A DNA stretch of 18,624 bases from Akkermansiaceae bacterium (GTDB taxonomy: Bacteria > Verrucomicrobiota > Verrucomicrobiia > Verrucomicrobiales > Akkermansiaceae), in the NCBI GenBank assembly GCA_028293225.1, contig JAQGPE010000761.1, forward strand, positions 1 through 18,624, given 5' to 3'. The notes beneath the pieces are model-generated. The model was given only the letters and a program-made list of their open reading frames with translations. It made no database searches and had not been told where the DNA came from. A program made the translations under genes and the position numbers. Position 1 is the stretch's first letter. Every line of letters starts with the position of its first letter. Below are positions 3,511-11,491 of this stretch, one piece after another.

Positions 3511-4506
3511 TCAGTCGCCGAAGAGATTGCCGATGCCGCCGAGGACGGAGCCTTCGCCCTTGCCGCTGGAGTACATGCTGGTGATGCGGTGGGCCAGGCG
3601 GGAGAAGGGCATGCTCTGGAGCCAGACGGTGCCGTGGCCCTGGAGGGTGGCGAGGAAGAGGCCCTCGCCGCCGAAGACCATCGACTTCAGGCTTCCGGAG
3701 CGCTGGATGTCGTAGTTGATGCCCTTGGTGAAGGCGACGATGCAGCCGGTATCGACGAAGAGCTTTTCGCCCTTCAGCTCCTTGCGGACGACGGTGCCGC
3801 CGGCGTGAACGAAGGCCAGGCCATCGCCGTTGAGGCGCTGGAGGATGAAGCCCTCGCCGCCGAAGAGTCCGGCGCCGAGCTTCCTGTTGAAGGCGACGCC
3901 GACCTGGGTGCCGAGAGCGGCGCAGAGGAAGGCGCCTTTTTCACACATCAGTTCGCCGCCGTGAACGGAGAGATCGACGGGGACCACCGTACCGGGATAG
4001 GGGGCGGCAAAGGTGACGCGCTTCTTGCCCTGGCCCTGGTTGGTGAAGTGGGTCATGAAGATCGACTCGCCGGTCAGGGCGCGTTTGCCGACCGCCATCA
4101 GCTTGCCCATGAAGCCGGAGTCGGGCGTGGAGCCGTCGCCCATCTTCGTTTCGAAGACGATGCCGTCCTCCATGTAGTTCATGGCCCCGGCCTCGGCGAT
4201 GACGGTCTCGCGCGGGTCGAGTTCGATTTCCACCATCTGGATCGACTCGCCGATGATCTCGTAGTCGATCTCATGGGAGCGGCGGCCGGACGGGGCGGCG
4301 CCGGATGGCGGCAGTGGCGGCGGGGGAGCGCCCGCGCCCTTGAAGAGGTCCGGCAGGACCCCGGAAGCGGCTTCCCAGCCGGCCATGCCCGCGGTCCAGA
4401 CCAGGGTCGCAGGGGTGATGATGCCGCCCTCGACCAGTTCGGCGAGGTTTTCTTCGGAGGTGGAAGCCTGCGATCCGGAGGCCGAGTGGTAGTGCCAAGT
4501 TTTCAT
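3511..4506 (-). CDS. GYF_2-AIM24 (TIGR00266) family protein
   Basis: This 331-residue protein has two parts. Residues 1-55 ([13 protein letters not shown]..., [14 protein letters not shown]) match the GYF_2 domain found at the start of many bacterial membrane-associated proteins. A Pro/Ala-rich linker follows at 58-75. Residues 78 to about 320 form the AIM24/TIGR00266 beta-sandwich, with family hallmarks [26 protein letters not shown], the [15 protein letters not shown] repeat and the [12 protein letters not shown] segment. AIM24 proteins are named after a yeast mitochondrial protein; bacterial members have no settled function, and membrane or protein-scaffold roles are suggested. No signal peptide is seen. 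The start at 4506 begins the GYF_2 domain exactly. It is the last gene of the minus-strand run, 60 bp downstream of the GIY-YIG gene. Confidence 0.88.
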
Positions 4507-4566
4507 CTCAGTGGAGTATTTAAGATCAATCTGCTTACGCAGTTGAAATTTCTGACAGTAATTCCA

Positions 4567-5265
4567 CTAGGCCGGGGCTGTGCCCTGGCTGCTAAATTTG
4601 CCCATCTGGGTGTTGAGCAGATGGTTTGCGAAGCTTCGGATTAACAATGCTTCCAAGTCCTTGATTAACACGTCAGCGACGTGATAGGCGCTGAAGTAAT
4701 AAGCCAAATGATGTAATGGAACGAAGTGCTCTGCGATTTGACGCGTTTTTTCGTTGCTCGTGCGGTACGCCATTTTTCTATCGGGGTGGCTCACTTTGCG
4801 AATCTTCTGAACTTCACCACGGTCCCTATTGAAGACAGAATTGATTTCCTTCCAAAGGCTCTGCCTCTTGGCTTGTCCCGCGTAAATTGCATGACCTCTG
4901 CTGTCGAAGAATACGTATATGCCATGGTGCTCCATGAGCTCCTGTTTCAGGCCACTGCGATATGGATGAATCTGGCCTTTTTCCAGATGGCTGAAAATCC
5001 GAAAGGTTTGTGAGTTCAACCTGGCAGTGACCTTTTTGATCGGAAAGAACTCTACCAGTGGCCTGATTGCATTTCTCTGCAGTTCCTGATTGCCGCCTTT
5101 GTTAGCTTGGTTTGCAAGCCGCGCTACGTCAGTCGGGCTCACCGCTTCTTTGTTCTTCCATGTGTGGATCGTTTGAGGAGTCACTCCCAACTTAATTGCC
5201 AGAGTTCGATCTGTGGGGGCGTTGAACTGCTTTTTAAGTGCTTCGATAACGGAAGATCCTGTCAT
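4567..5265 (-). CDS. HTH (CI-repressor-like) / GIY-YIG domain fusion protein
   Basis: This is a 232-residue protein. Residues 5-55 form a helix-turn-helix like the phage CI-repressor N-terminal domain (TLAIKLGVTPQTIHTW, then AVSPTDVARL). Residues 113-225 look like a GIY-YIG nuclease: GIY at 115-117, exactly ten residues, then YAG at 128-130 in place of YIG, basic and aromatic residues after it, a candidate metal-binding Glu in DLEALLIRSF (E205) and an Asn in HLLNTQMGKF (N218). GIY-YIG domains usually nick or cut DNA; activity here is inferred. ATG 5265 is chosen because the longer open frame upstream would overlap the previous gene's Gly/Cys-rich tail and cross the likely promoter. GC is low: 26 of 60 bases at 4681-4740 against 46 of 60 at 4321-4380. 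This suggests recent acquisition. It could be a regulator with a degenerate nuclease, a defence gene or a homing-type remnant. Confidence 0.75.
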   Translation of the reverse strand: MTGSSVIEALKKQFNAPTDRTLAIKLGVTPQTIHTWKNKEAVSPTDVARLANQANKGGNQELQRNAIRPLVEFFPIKKVTARLNSQTFRIFSHLEKGQIHPYRSGLKQELMEHHGIYVFFDSRGHAIYAGQAKRQSLWKEINSVFNRDRGEVQKIRKVSHPDRKMAYRTSNEKTRQIAEHFVPLHHLAYYFSAYHVADVLIKDLEALLIRSFANHLLNTQMGKFSSQGTAPA

Positions 5266-5277
5266 GATGGGCGGGAG

Positions 5278-5294
5278 GTTTGATGATATCAAAC
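5278..5294. promoter_or_regulatory. Palindromic operator candidate (GTTTGAT-GAT-ATCAAAC)
   Basis: This is a perfect 7-bp inverted repeat with a 3-bp spacer, 12 bp upstream of the ATG of the HTH/GIY-YIG gene. It overlaps the putative -10 box. Palindromes of this size are typical binding sites for CI-like dimers, so self-repression by the encoded HTH protein is a reasonable inference. I noticed no second copy in the window. Confidence 0.6.
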
Positions 5295-5316
5295 GATCTT
5301 CTAACAGGCGTGCCAA
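5288..5316 (-). promoter_or_regulatory. Candidate promoter of the HTH/GIY-YIG gene
   Basis: Read on the minus strand, TTGGCA (5316-5311) is followed after exactly 17 bases by TTTGAT (5293-5288). These match the sigma70 consensus at 5 of 6 and 4 of 6 positions. Transcription would start near 5281, about 16 bases before the ATG. The -10 box lies inside the palindrome at 5278-5294, which fits a self-repressed promoter. No Shine-Dalgarno sequence lies between it and the ATG. Confidence 0.5.
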
Positions 5317-5335
5317 TCTAAAACATGTCGATCTT

Positions 5336-6370
5336 TCAGTCGCCGCCACCGCCACCGCATCCTCCACAACCGCTGCTGCCGCAACTGGATCCGCCGCCGC
5401 TGTCCGAGGAGGAACTACAGCTTGATCCGCCGCCGCTGTCGGAGGAACTACAACTGGAGTAGGTGGAGGTGCTGCAGCCGGAGGAGGAGCCGCCGTCGCC
5501 GCCGGCGGGGGCTGGCTGGCCCAGGCGGGGATTGCGCATCATCCAGGTGGATACCTCCGGAAATTCGGTGGCGGCCGCCACGGCGGCGGCGCCGAAGAGG
5601 GCGGGACCGATCGCCCACAAGGCGAGGTTCGGGCTGCTTTCCTCGAGGGTTGAGGTCGTGGTCCACTGGTTCCGGATGCGGACTTTTTCCAAGGCCGCCT
5701 GGCCCGCGGCGGTCAGGCCCCCACGACGATTGGACGCGTGTTTCATCATCAGCGATTTCGTGAGCACCGTGATGGCCACCGCGATGAACAGGAAGCTGAC
5801 CGGGCGGCCGCGGTCAAGGCCGACGAGGATCTTGATGCCGCCGAGCACGGCGAGTGCGATCAGGGGCGTGCCCTCGCCGTGGTTTTTCCGCCACTCCTTG
5901 GCGGTGGGACGGAGGCCCTTAGCGGCCAGTTTGGCCTCCAGTTGTTCAAACTCCGGATTCAGCGCGGAGTCAATCGCGGCGACATGCCACCCGCCAGTGC
6001 CCGTCCCCCGGATGCGGTCGATCAAGGTACGCTCCAGCAGGTTCAGTCCGGATGGCAGGGGTGCTTCCGTCGTGACCAGGCGGGGAGTGGACCATTGGCT
6101 GTCCCAGGCGATCACGCCGGACTTGAGCATTTTCAGCAGCAGGACCTCCATGACGCGGGGCTTGCCGCCGGCGAGGAGGGCGATCTCGTAGGGATCGCTG
6201 AGTTCCTGTGGCGGAGCGGGAATATCGTAGCGGGCATTGCGGGCGCGGATGCGTTGCCAGGTCCAGGCGGTGGCGATGAGGTAGGCGACGGCGTAAAAGA
6301 GGAGGAAGTCGGGGCCCTTCCAGTCGATCAGCGGGATTTCAGCGATGAGAGCGGGGGAGGAGGCGATCAT
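5336..6370 (-). CDS. TIGR04222 domain-containing membrane protein with Ser/Cys/Gly-rich tail
   Basis: This 344-residue membrane protein has predicted helices near residues 21-38, 168-185, 190-205 and 248-267. The cytoplasmic part after the first helix carries the DPYEIALLAGGKPRVMEVLLLKML motif (59-82), which is the hallmark of TIGR04222. The C-terminus (about 294-344) is a low-complexity tail with repeated SSSDSGGGSSC units ending in GCGGCGGGGGD, also usual for this family. Function is unknown. The ATG at 6370 overlaps the stop of the glycine-rich-domain gene by 4 bases (ATGA), so the two are translationally coupled. The same pairing is, as far as I recall, frequent in other bacteria, which suggests a shared envelope function. 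The cysteines in the tail could bind metal or form disulfides; that is speculation. Confidence 0.85.
   Translation of the reverse strand: MIASSPALIAEIPLIDWKGPDFLLFYAVAYLIATAWTWQRIRARNARYDIPAPPQELSDPYEIALLAGGKPRVMEVLLLKMLKSGVIAWDSQWSTPRLVTTEAPLPSGLNLLERTLIDRIRGTGTGGWHVAAIDSALNPEFEQLEAKLAAKGLRPTAKEWRKNHGEGTPLIALAVLGGIKILVGLDRGRPVSFLFIAVAITVLTKSLMMKHASNRRGGLTAAGQAALEKVRIRNQWTTTSTLEESSPNLALWAIGPALFGAAAVAAATEFPEVSTWMMRNPRLGQPAPAGGDGGSSSGCSTSTYSSCSSSDSGGGSSCSSSSDSGGGSSCGSSGCGGCGGGGGD
5388..5452. repeat. Short tandem repeat in the Ser/Cys/Gly tail
   Basis: Two near-identical units begin with GATCCGCCGCCGCTGTC at 5388 and again at 5424, and each ends in GGAACTACA (5411-5419 and 5444-5452). On the minus strand they encode the repeated SSSDSGGGSSC peptide of the TIGR04222 protein. 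The units differ by 3 bases in length, as expected for a repeat that expands or shrinks by slippage in frame. Confidence 0.75.
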
Positions 6371-9567: not shown

Positions 9568-10509
9568 ATGGCCCTGACCTCCCACACCGCGCCGCTGACC
9601 CCCGCCCAGGCGAAGTTGTTGCGGCAGTCGCTGGAGGATCACGGCTTCGATTTCGAGACGAAGCCATACACCCTCTACGCGGCGAAGAAGGGCAAGCTGA
9701 ACGTGGCGGTCTACGAAAAGGGGCCGAAGGTGCTGGTGCAGGGCAAGGACACCGAGGACTTCATCCGCTTCATCCTGGAGCCGGAGGTGCTCGGCGAGGC
9801 CAAGCTGGGCTATGAGGAGATCGCCGACCCGGAGATGTTCGCCCCCCATTTCGGAATCGATGAGAGCGGCAAGGGCGACTATTTCGGCCCGCTGGTCATC
9901 GCCGGGGTCTACACCGACGCCGCGATCACCCGGCAGCTGATGGCGGCCGGCGTCATGGATTCGAAGCGGATTTCCTCGGCAAAAAAGATTCGCGATGTCG
10001 CAGCCCGGATCCGGGATACCCCGGGGATCGTCACCGCTGTCGTGGCGATCGGACCGGAGCGCTACAACGAAATGCACACTTCCTTTGGCAATCTCAACCG
10101 TCTGCTTGCCTGGGGGCACGCCCGGACGATCGAGAGCCTGGTCCGGCAGCGGCCCGATTGCCCGCGCGCCTTGAGCGACCAGTTCGCCAAGCCGGAGGTG
10201 CTGGCCCGCGCCCTGAAAAAGCAGGGTGTGGAGATCCAGCTCGACCAGCGGACCAAGGGAGAATCCGACATCGCGGTGGCCGCGGCCTCCATCCTGGCGC
10301 GCGAACGTTTCGTCGATTGGATGGACAAAACCTCCGAATCCGGGGGAGTGAGGCTGCCTTTGGGCGCTTCCGAGGCCGTGGTGGAGGCTGCCATACAGGT
10401 TGTGGAGCGTCACGGGCTCCCCGGACTGGGCAAGGTCGCAAAGCTACACTTTAAGACAACTGCAAGGGTTTGCGGCGATTCAAACGGGTCTGGCATGGAT
10501 TCCGCATAA
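9568..10509 (+). CDS. rnhC: Ribonuclease HIII
   Basis: RNase HIII cuts the RNA strand of RNA-DNA hybrids. The 313-residue protein starts with a TBP-like substrate-binding domain (DUF3378, about residues 8-85), which separates HIII from HII. The catalytic domain has GIDESGKGDYFGPL with D98 and E99, MDSKRI with D131, SDQFA with D204 and ESDIAVAAASILAR with D234. The paired D-E at the first site is the HIII signature. ATG 9568 is the natural start; no Shine-Dalgarno sequence precedes it. The short C-terminal tail after HFKTTARV looks unstructured. It shares the 61-bp gap upstream with the divergent small secreted protein. Confidence 0.94.
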   Translation: MALTSHTAPLTPAQAKLLRQSLEDHGFDFETKPYTLYAAKKGKLNVAVYEKGPKVLVQGKDTEDFIRFILEPEVLGEAKLGYEEIADPEMFAPHFGIDESGKGDYFGPLVIAGVYTDAAITRQLMAAGVMDSKRISSAKKIRDVAARIRDTPGIVTAVVAIGPERYNEMHTSFGNLNRLLAWGHARTIESLVRQRPDCPRALSDQFAKPEVLARALKKQGVEIQLDQRTKGESDIAVAAASILARERFVDWMDKTSESGGVRLPLGASEAVVEAAIQVVERHGLPGLGKVAKLHFKTTARVCGDSNGSGMDSA

Positions 10510-10596
10510 TTTTGTTGGATTTTTCGCGGGACAAAAGGGTGCCCCTATGTTGTCCAATCCGCCCCGCACCCCACGAACTCAATCACCCGTACGTCC

Positions 10597-10914
10597 ATGG
10601 CAACCATCACTAAGCGCGAGCTCGTCATCAAGATTTCGAACGAAACCGGTCTCACTCAGCAGCAGGTTTTCGACGTGATCCAGCGCACGCTGGACTCGAT
10701 CACGGACTCCCTCTCCAACGGCGACACCGTCGTTATGAGAAATTTCGGCGCCTTTCAGGTGAAAGAGACCAAGGCCAAGATCGGCCGCAACCCGAAGGAT
10801 CCTGACAAGGATGTGCCGATCCCGGCCCGTGCCGTGGTGAAGTTCAAGCCCGGCAAGGAAATGAAGGAACAGGTGGCGCGCACGCTGCCGATGATCCGCG
10901 AGCGCAAAAAATAA
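10597..10914 (+). CDS. HU/IHF family DNA-binding protein
   Basis: This 105-residue nucleoid-associated protein bends and compacts DNA as a dimer. It has the helical N-terminal half (TKRELVIKISNETGLTQQQV), the MRNFGAF turn at 48-53 and the DNA-binding arm starting GRNPKDPD at 63-70 with the conserved intercalating Pro. The C-terminus is about 10 residues longer than the usual 90-95 and ends in a basic RERKK. It is more IHF-like than HU-like in length, but which subgroup cannot be decided by eye. ATG 10597 starts the fold and no ribosome binding site is seen. The gene probably has its own promoter in the 87 bp after rnhC. Confidence 0.92.
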   Translation: MATITKRELVIKISNETGLTQQQVFDVIQRTLDSITDSLSNGDTVVMRNFGAFQVKETKAKIGRNPKDPDKDVPIPARAVVKFKPGKEMKEQVARTLPMIRERKK

Positions 10915-10920
10915 GCATCA

Positions 10921-10937
10921 GGGCCGCCTCCCGGCCC
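10921..10937 (+). terminator. Weak terminator-like hairpin after the HU/IHF gene
   Basis: A perfect 6-bp stem GGGCCG / CGGCCC with loop CCTCC lies 7 bp after the stop codon of the HU/IHF gene. There is no T-run after it, so it may not end transcription by itself; it could pause or protect the transcript end. Confidence 0.35.
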
Positions 10938-10981
10938 GCGACGGCTTGCGGCGTCAGCGAGTCGCCGCTACCAATCCGGCC

Positions 10982-11491
10982 ATGCAGCGCCAAATCCTGC
11001 CGCTGGCCGTCCTGGCCCTATCTCTGGCCTCCTGTGCCTATCCTGGCGGGAGCTACCGGGGCTACATGACGCGCTCCTATCACGAAAAGGGCGCCGACTG
11101 GCACCCGATGGGGGTCGATGAGGCCCTTCATTACGACGAAACCGGGATCGCCTCCTGGTACGACGAGTCCAGTTTTCTCGGATTCAAGCGTGGCCAGACC
11201 TCGCTGGGGGAAAAAGTGATGCCCTGGCATCTGATCGCCGCCCACAAGACGCTGCCGCTGCCCTGCATGGTCAAGGTGACCAATGTTCAGAACGGGCGGT
11301 CCGTGAAGTGCCGCGTCAATGACCGGGGTCCTTTTGTGGCCAACCGGATCATCGATCTTTCCCCGCGCGCCGCGAAGAAACTGGGTTTTCGTGACAACGG
11401 GCTCGCCCAGGTCGAGGTGAAAGTGATCTCGGTGGGGGATGGCTCCTACAAGCGGACGGCCGGGCGGAAGTGGTTCTTCGGACTGTTCTAA
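10982..11491 (+). CDS. rlpA: RlpA-like double-psi beta-barrel lipoprotein
   Basis: RlpA proteins are lipoproteins that cleave stripped peptidoglycan strands, mainly at the septum. In this 169-residue protein residues 1-18 are a lipoprotein signal peptide with lipobox LASC (C18). Residues 55-150 are the DPBB domain: TGIASWYDESSFLG, then AAHKTLPLPCMVKVTN (H88), RVNDRGPFVANRIIDLS (D114). These His and Asp are the residues needed for lytic transglycosylase activity in known RlpA proteins. There is no C-terminal SPOR domain. I chose ATG 10982 because it starts the signal peptide; a TTG at 10946 would add an unlikely arginine-rich extension. The amidase gene follows 83 bp later, so both cell-wall enzymes are probably expressed together. 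Confidence 0.88.
   Translation: MQRQILPLAVLALSLASCAYPGGSYRGYMTRSYHEKGADWHPMGVDEALHYDETGIASWYDESSFLGFKRGQTSLGEKVMPWHLIAAHKTLPLPCMVKVTNVQNGRSVKCRVNDRGPFVANRIIDLSPRAAKKLGFRDNGLAQVEVKVISVGDGSYKRTAGRKWFFGLF

Follow-up and report, generated by a model that had tools for sequence, protein, structure and literature searches.

A GC-poor gene joining an HTH to a GIY-YIG domain in an Akkermansiaceae contig: a possible mobile, single-gene, restriction-like nuclease

Described GIY-YIG systems and the gene under study

GIY-YIG domains are known from UvrC, from restriction endonucleases and from the free-standing seg nucleases of T4. A further gene with such a domain is described here from a contig of 18,624 nucleotides (JAQGPE010000761.1, C331 in the analysis; the whole stretch is called the window) in an Akkermansiaceae assembly of 4.5 Mb that is 62% complete (GCA_028293225.1). 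Its product of 232 amino acids joins an N-terminal helix-turn-helix (HTH) of the CI/Cro type to a C-terminal GIY-YIG domain, and, as its relatives are scattered over several phyla and some lie within antiviral gene clusters, the gene is probably a small stand-alone defence or selfish nuclease of a previously undescribed kind.

The winged helix (wH)-GIY-YIG endonucleases Ahi29725I and Apa233I are likewise single genes in which a DNA-reading helical domain is fused to GIY-YIG. Their winged helix is described as reading Gm6ATC, and four wH-GIY-YIG genes are placed near an EcoRI-like adenine methylase (PMC11037411). The reader of the window protein, however, is a CI/Cro HTH and not a winged helix. 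R.Eco29kI, a GIY-YIG type II restriction enzyme, is not known to have a CI-like HTH, and no partner methylase was recognised in the window. The N-terminal GIY-YIG domain of UvrC shares the fold, and its GIY, YxG, Glu and Asn follow one another as in the window protein, but UvrC lacks the HTH; the position of its catalytic Arg in helix 1 aligns with E140/W138 of the window protein, whose invariant R147 and R149 lie further along, and more residues separate helix 1 from the Glu helix in the window protein. In CMoRE and PD-T4-3 the GIY-YIG domain is N-terminal and has a third Tyr (GIYxY), whereas in the window protein it is C-terminal with F119, a residue present in all 120 listed homologues. The T4 seg proteins and I-TevI also carry GIY-YIG, with the catalytic domain at the N-terminus, unlike the window protein. 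The seg genes are solitary and are described as free-standing nucleases of intergenic regions (PMC2988022).

UzuA of the Uzume system has a C-terminal GIY-YIG-like motif in common with the window protein, and its PADLOC model was matched weakly, at the start of GIY-YIG, by 21 of 46 family members (best E 7e-5). The N-terminal domain of UzuA is nevertheless different, and an hhalign comparison covered residues 104-157 only, at a probability of 7%, with a UzuA profile built from 11 UzuA-model matches of the window's phylum (L152-L162), among them a wrong ORF (L158, from the congener G003) and a truncated one (L157). In the phylum, 18 of 387 genomes contain matches to the UzuA model, some of them weak or partial, and a GIY-YIG-like motif stands at the end of the longer ones.

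Domain make-up of the protein

The open reading frame (ORF) and its two domains are placed as follows.

Positions 4567 to 5265, minus strand: ORF with an N-terminal CI/Cro-type HTH and a C-terminal GIY-YIG nuclease-type domain (from sequence, profiles and a structure model).
Positions 5068 to 5259, minus strand: HTH domain, residues 3-66, with helices 3-13, 19-26, 30-37 and 44-66 (AlphaFold2, Pfam, VIA-align).
Positions 4585 to 4968, minus strand: GIY-YIG domain, residues 100-227, with GIY 115-117, YAG 128-130, E140, R147, R149, E205 and N218 (homologue alignment, profiles, structure).

The intact frame runs from an ATG at 5265 to a stop at 4567-4569 and confirms the protein of 232 residues given in a preliminary description of this DNA, made from the sequence alone. 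That description also proposed the CI-like HTH, the GIY and YAG motifs and the candidate residues E205 and N218, all of which were borne out. The residues of nuclease type are the most conserved part of the protein: G115, Y117, Y128, G130, E205 and N218 are each invariant in the 120 listed homologues. The order characteristic of the GIY-YIG superfamily, with GIY and YxG strands followed by a late Glu and Asn, is present, and a fold check, which might have pointed to a non-nuclease family, upheld GIY-YIG by model, profile and structure matches alike, the structural comparison returning UvrC, Eco29kI and I-TevI. Cleavage of DNA is the predicted activity.

The HTH is supported by an AlphaFold2 model with a predicted local distance difference test (pLDDT) value of 89.3, in which the four helices listed above are formed, and by Pfam Phage_CI_repr, which matches residues 6-51 below its curated cut-off (E 0.0023) and is matched at E<=0.01 by 27 of 46 aligned family members, the window protein included. 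Across the family the N-terminal domain matches the Phage_CI_repr, YdaS_toxin and HTH_3 models. VIA-align places it with HigA2/SinR/Cro and with lambda-repressor-like structures, the resemblance extends to C.AhdI, SinR, HigA and Cro, and PHROGs phrog_638, a 'transcriptional regulator', matches the same part at E 1.7e-6. A viral structure library returned mostly HTH matches, none with an E under 0.001, and one GIY-YIG protein at rank 14 (probability 0.13).

It is on this make-up, together with the spread and contexts given below, that we would read the gene as a horizontally mobile, single-gene, HTH-guided, restriction-like DNA nuclease, with a probability of roughly 0.5. The protein would act as a small restriction enzyme does, its HTH head docking at a DNA target that is specific or modified and its GIY-YIG tail cutting the DNA; the same HTH may also bind the palindrome that precedes the gene and keep expression low. 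The gene would persist by itself, as an accessory, or be carried as a guest in defence operons, notably between two hsdM genes. If the protein is active, a single-gene, HTH-guided nuclease would be added to the defence repertoire.

A widespread and sporadic family

The family is nuclease-type and counts some 600 profile matches across several phyla, and no model covering the whole protein was found among the Pfam, NCBIfam, PHROGs and PADLOC models scanned: Pfam and NCBIfam matches stay below cut-off, and PHROGs names the HTH alone. One homologue search gave 230 homologues out of 455 candidates (120 listed), and a profile search gave 627 matching proteins out of 7998 scored (120 listed). Where the sources name the members at all, they are called hypothetical proteins or HTH regulators. 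The earlier remark that no named system with this exact architecture was known is upheld: among the titles and abstract openings listed by literature searches, which excluded subscription journals and REBASE, none described the family. Variants include duplicated HTHs (P0012, P0022, P0026, P0030), an extra C-terminal DUF3489 (P0060) and a near-identical pair, L024 and L025, in which the HTH is missing but the residues of nuclease type remain.

Scans of viral and genome contigs with the single sequence gave no relative, but an alignment-based search recovered 32 genome-contig loci (a pattern matched 72 stretches) and four in viral contigs (15 stretches). The former are labelled Verrucomicrobiales, Acidobacteria, Deltaproteobacteria and several proteobacterial groups. 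Plasmid and phage records held no tblastn match to the window protein at E 1e-5.

Within lineages the gene is rare. In a set of 57 genomes from genus to order it occurs in the window's own only, and hence in none of 17 congeners; in the genus of L021 (labelled Stenotrophomonas) it is found in two of 91 genomes. A search of a sample of 387 phylum genomes, which scored at most seven candidates per genome, gave nine matches, and only the window's own genome holds a full-length family member. Seven of the nine were dropped, the match lying inside a long ORF (490-599 amino acids) judged by eye to be UvrC, and so was L081, which covers the HTH part only.

The window gene has a GC content of 0.489 against 0.646 for the remaining window, lower than all 166 other 700-bp windows tested, and in each of the 28 loci measured, this one included, GC is lower in the gene than in the remainder of the locus (copies L011, L022, L023, L025, L030-L033 and L037 were left out of the comparison). 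Taken together, the low GC and the sporadic spread point to continuing horizontal movement of the family, although amino-acid make-up may contribute to the low GC. The low GC and the foreign origin proposed in the preliminary description thus hold, and syntenic, GC-matched homologues throughout the genus, which would have counted against that description, were not what was found.

Genomic contexts and the hsdM junction

In five of the 36 loci (L002, L004, L018, L019, L023) a type I restriction operon encloses the gene, which stands exactly between its paired hsdM genes; in L002 and L004 it overlaps each of them by 4 bp. In L003 it abuts an hsdM of the second type; a candidate hsdM1 upstream was rejected, the 210-residue ORF there having no similarity to HsdM1. 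In the other 30 loci the gene is not directly before an hsdM2, and an HsdM gene stands further off in L027 (0.26 kb downstream) and L012 (about 8 kb upstream). Across loci, first-position HsdMs are 66-91% identical and second-position ones 63-91%, while first and second share 48-56%; NPPF or NPPY and motif I are present in all eleven full-length HsdMs. An hsdS-type gene follows in all six hsdM2-linked loci, four of which (L003, L004, L018, L019) also have one of hsdR type, names given by eye, with Methylase_S confirmed for two of 105 neighbour proteins.

The same junction can be empty or hold other genes. Related operons with two adjacent M genes and nothing between them occur in the window's phylum (L109, L110, L113) and on Streptomyces and Exiguobacterium plasmids (L115, L116), so the gene is no obligate member of the type I operon. 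Elsewhere the junction holds PDDEXK_3 (L107), two ORFs without a Pfam match (L108), HEAT repeats (L111) or Schlafen AlbA_2 (L112). Being empty or variously filled, the M1|M2 junction is a cargo slot and the HTH-GIY-YIG gene one of its guests. The slot between paired hsdM genes would be a simple place to look for more accessory nucleases.

Beyond hsdM, the neighbours of relatives include AbiEi/AbiEii (L012), IetA (L011), a partial AriA match (L014), a HEC-05/PDC-M55C match (L024; DUF262-like by eye), a methylase with ORF6N (L006) and ThiF/E2 (L027); a defence-model scan of 10 neighbour proteins left three without a match, and integrases make up two of the 105. These 105 are hand-picked nearest ORFs, nearly all out of 258, from a set that omits the near-duplicate loci L022, L025 and L031; having no control set, they leave enrichment unquantified. 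Some relatives thus stand beside defence or phage genes, and these neighbours, with the gene-free sites described below, support the defence, homing or anti-element setting proposed earlier. The claim of a solitary gene holds for some relatives but not for the guests of type I operons; housekeeping neighbours, as in the window, occur at L009, L010 and L016.

Two side observations concern these neighbourhoods. At L019 (12195-15766, labelled Xanthomonas nasturtii) the Gabija pair GajA and GajB lies between hsdM2 and hsdS in the same operon. The X-Tfes XVIPCD domain occurs in three of the 105 neighbour proteins, a tally without locus names; it was placed at L017/L021 through an ORF family common to L017, L021 and L022.

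Gain, decay and alternative readings

The strongest alternative is a free-standing selfish gene of the homing type, which would cut alleles lacking it, be copied in by repair and benefit the host only incidentally; we regard this as unlikely but worth serious weight. The six genes directly upstream of hsdM2 do not form one clade: they require six changes, at least five forced by starred branches, where shuffled labels average 5.9 and the locus rows alone also give six. Identity among the nuclease genes of L002, L003 and L004 is 54-63%, against 80-84% for the M genes, and between those of L018 and L019 it is 73% against 91%, which indicates replacement or faster evolution of the nuclease gene. 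In the close pair L021/L022, nearly all change is synonymous (nonsynonymous rate dN 0.002, synonymous rate dS 0.066). Copies are split in L009, L023 and L026, reduced to fragments in L030-L032 (L030 and L031 without G115 and Y128) and placed at contig ends in L033 and L037. At the site of L029 (labelled Variovorax; 9632-11216, compared with L146-L149) the 1.6 kb holding the gene is absent in two congeners, another carries 2.1 kb of different DNA, and 157 bp of the gene survive in the nearest relative; the comparison with strains lacking the gene that had been suggested thereby yielded gene-free versions of one relative's site. Gain and decay of this kind are typical of homing genes, and no integrase or transposase was recognised by eye beside several copies. 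The recurrent M1|M2 junction, with the gene-free sites and remnant near L029, might correspond to the conserved allelic site of such a gene, and the seg genes are a described case of free-standing GIY-YIG nucleases (PMC2988022).

Several findings sit less well with homing. The domain order differs from that of I-TevI, no target site was identified, and the M1|M2 slot also takes unrelated genes (PDDEXK_3, HEAT, SLFN_AlbA_2), so that the slot itself may attract cargo. The tree was moreover made quickly and has long branches and incomplete rows, with database proteins of unknown context scored as outside, and an ancestral association with restriction-modification followed by losses would be compatible with it. 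As an account of the decay and of the recurring junction, homing-type selfishness comes close to the restriction-like nuclease favoured here, and the two are not exclusive. More speculative still is a combination of both, in which self-spreading HTH-GIY-YIG nucleases cut alleles without them, repeatedly colonised the hsdM-pair junction and double as a restriction or guard activity; if true, such a nuclease would be a bridge between homing endonucleases and restriction enzymes.

An improbable alternative is a type IV-like, modification-dependent restriction enzyme analogous to Ahi29725I, with the HTH reading methylated DNA. The layout of a small DNA-reading domain plus GIY-YIG is similar, and some relatives adjoin methylase genes; four wH-GIY-YIG genes are likewise noted near a methylase (PMC11037411). 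The HTH is, however, CI/Cro-like, and the six copies (one split) directly upstream of hsdM adjoin an HsdM with both catalytic motifs, which would endanger a nuclease that depends on N6-methyladenine in general.

We consider it yet more doubtful that the protein regulates transcription and that its nuclease domain is a vestige or has a regulatory role. The likeness of the HTH to C.AhdI, SinR, HigA and Cro, the phrog_638 match and the upstream palindrome would suit a regulator, but the nuclease-type residues are the most conserved, and the pair L024/L025, possibly truncated copies, retains them without the HTH.

Least probable is a PrrC-like component or guard of type I systems, kept in check by the M subunits until restriction fails: the overlapping genes between two conserved hsdM genes recall PrrC, a latent nuclease embedded in a type I operon (PMC3874165), but only five of 36 loci have this arrangement, five related operons lack the gene, and HsdM_N was not found in the window's genome.

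A candidate operator

Positions 5278 to 5294, no strand: inverted repeat GTTTGAT-GAT-ATCAAAC, candidate operator (modest statistics; no motif common to relatives).

The preliminary description gave the gene its own operator and self-repression. The two 7-bp arms of a perfect inverted repeat, 3 nt apart, lie 12 bp upstream of the ATG; nowhere else in the assembly does the exact site occur, and one further place differs from it by one mismatch. The 10 nt GATCGTTTGA, which overlap the half-site of the repeat, are found again within the gene at 5167-5176. However, a repeat this good arises in 2.6% of first-order Markov sequences of the same make-up and in 19 of 531 70-bp windows of the contig, and a search upstream of 31 other copies brought out no common motif; in that search the start point fell inside the reading frame for at least seven copies and the DNA upstream of the restriction-linked ones was mostly hsdM. 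The palindrome is well placed and could be an operator, a suggestion with modest support; self-repression, for which support goes no further than this one palindrome, might be imagined by analogy with I-TevI, an autorepressor (PMC2988022).

The locus in the window

Positions 4507 to 5335, no strand: gene and both intergenic gaps, from the AIM24 gene to the gene at 5336-6370 (sequence, GC windows).

The AIM24 gene (3511-4506; Pfam E 4e-72) lies 60 bp from the HTH-GIY-YIG gene and has orthologues in congeners. None of the other 15 window proteins tested stands beside that orthologue in any of 14 congener stretches (9-16 kb), and the neighbour at 5336-6370, codirectional, 70 bp upstream and without a Pfam match, has a relative in just four of 18 genus genomes, the window's own counted; the 'run of vertical-looking genes' described earlier is therefore not sustained. 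Because the neighbourhood differs in all 14 stretches, the window's genus offered no definable empty site. No direct repeats flanking the low-GC block on both sides were found, and the window holds no tRNA.

Two minor observations may be added. The window copy has outlier residues, Q131 and G222, where homologues are near-fixed, perhaps a sign of early relaxation. The protein of 5336-6370 has a C-terminal tail rich in Gly, Ser and Cys, and that part of its gene contains a 29-nt direct repeat (5382, 5418).
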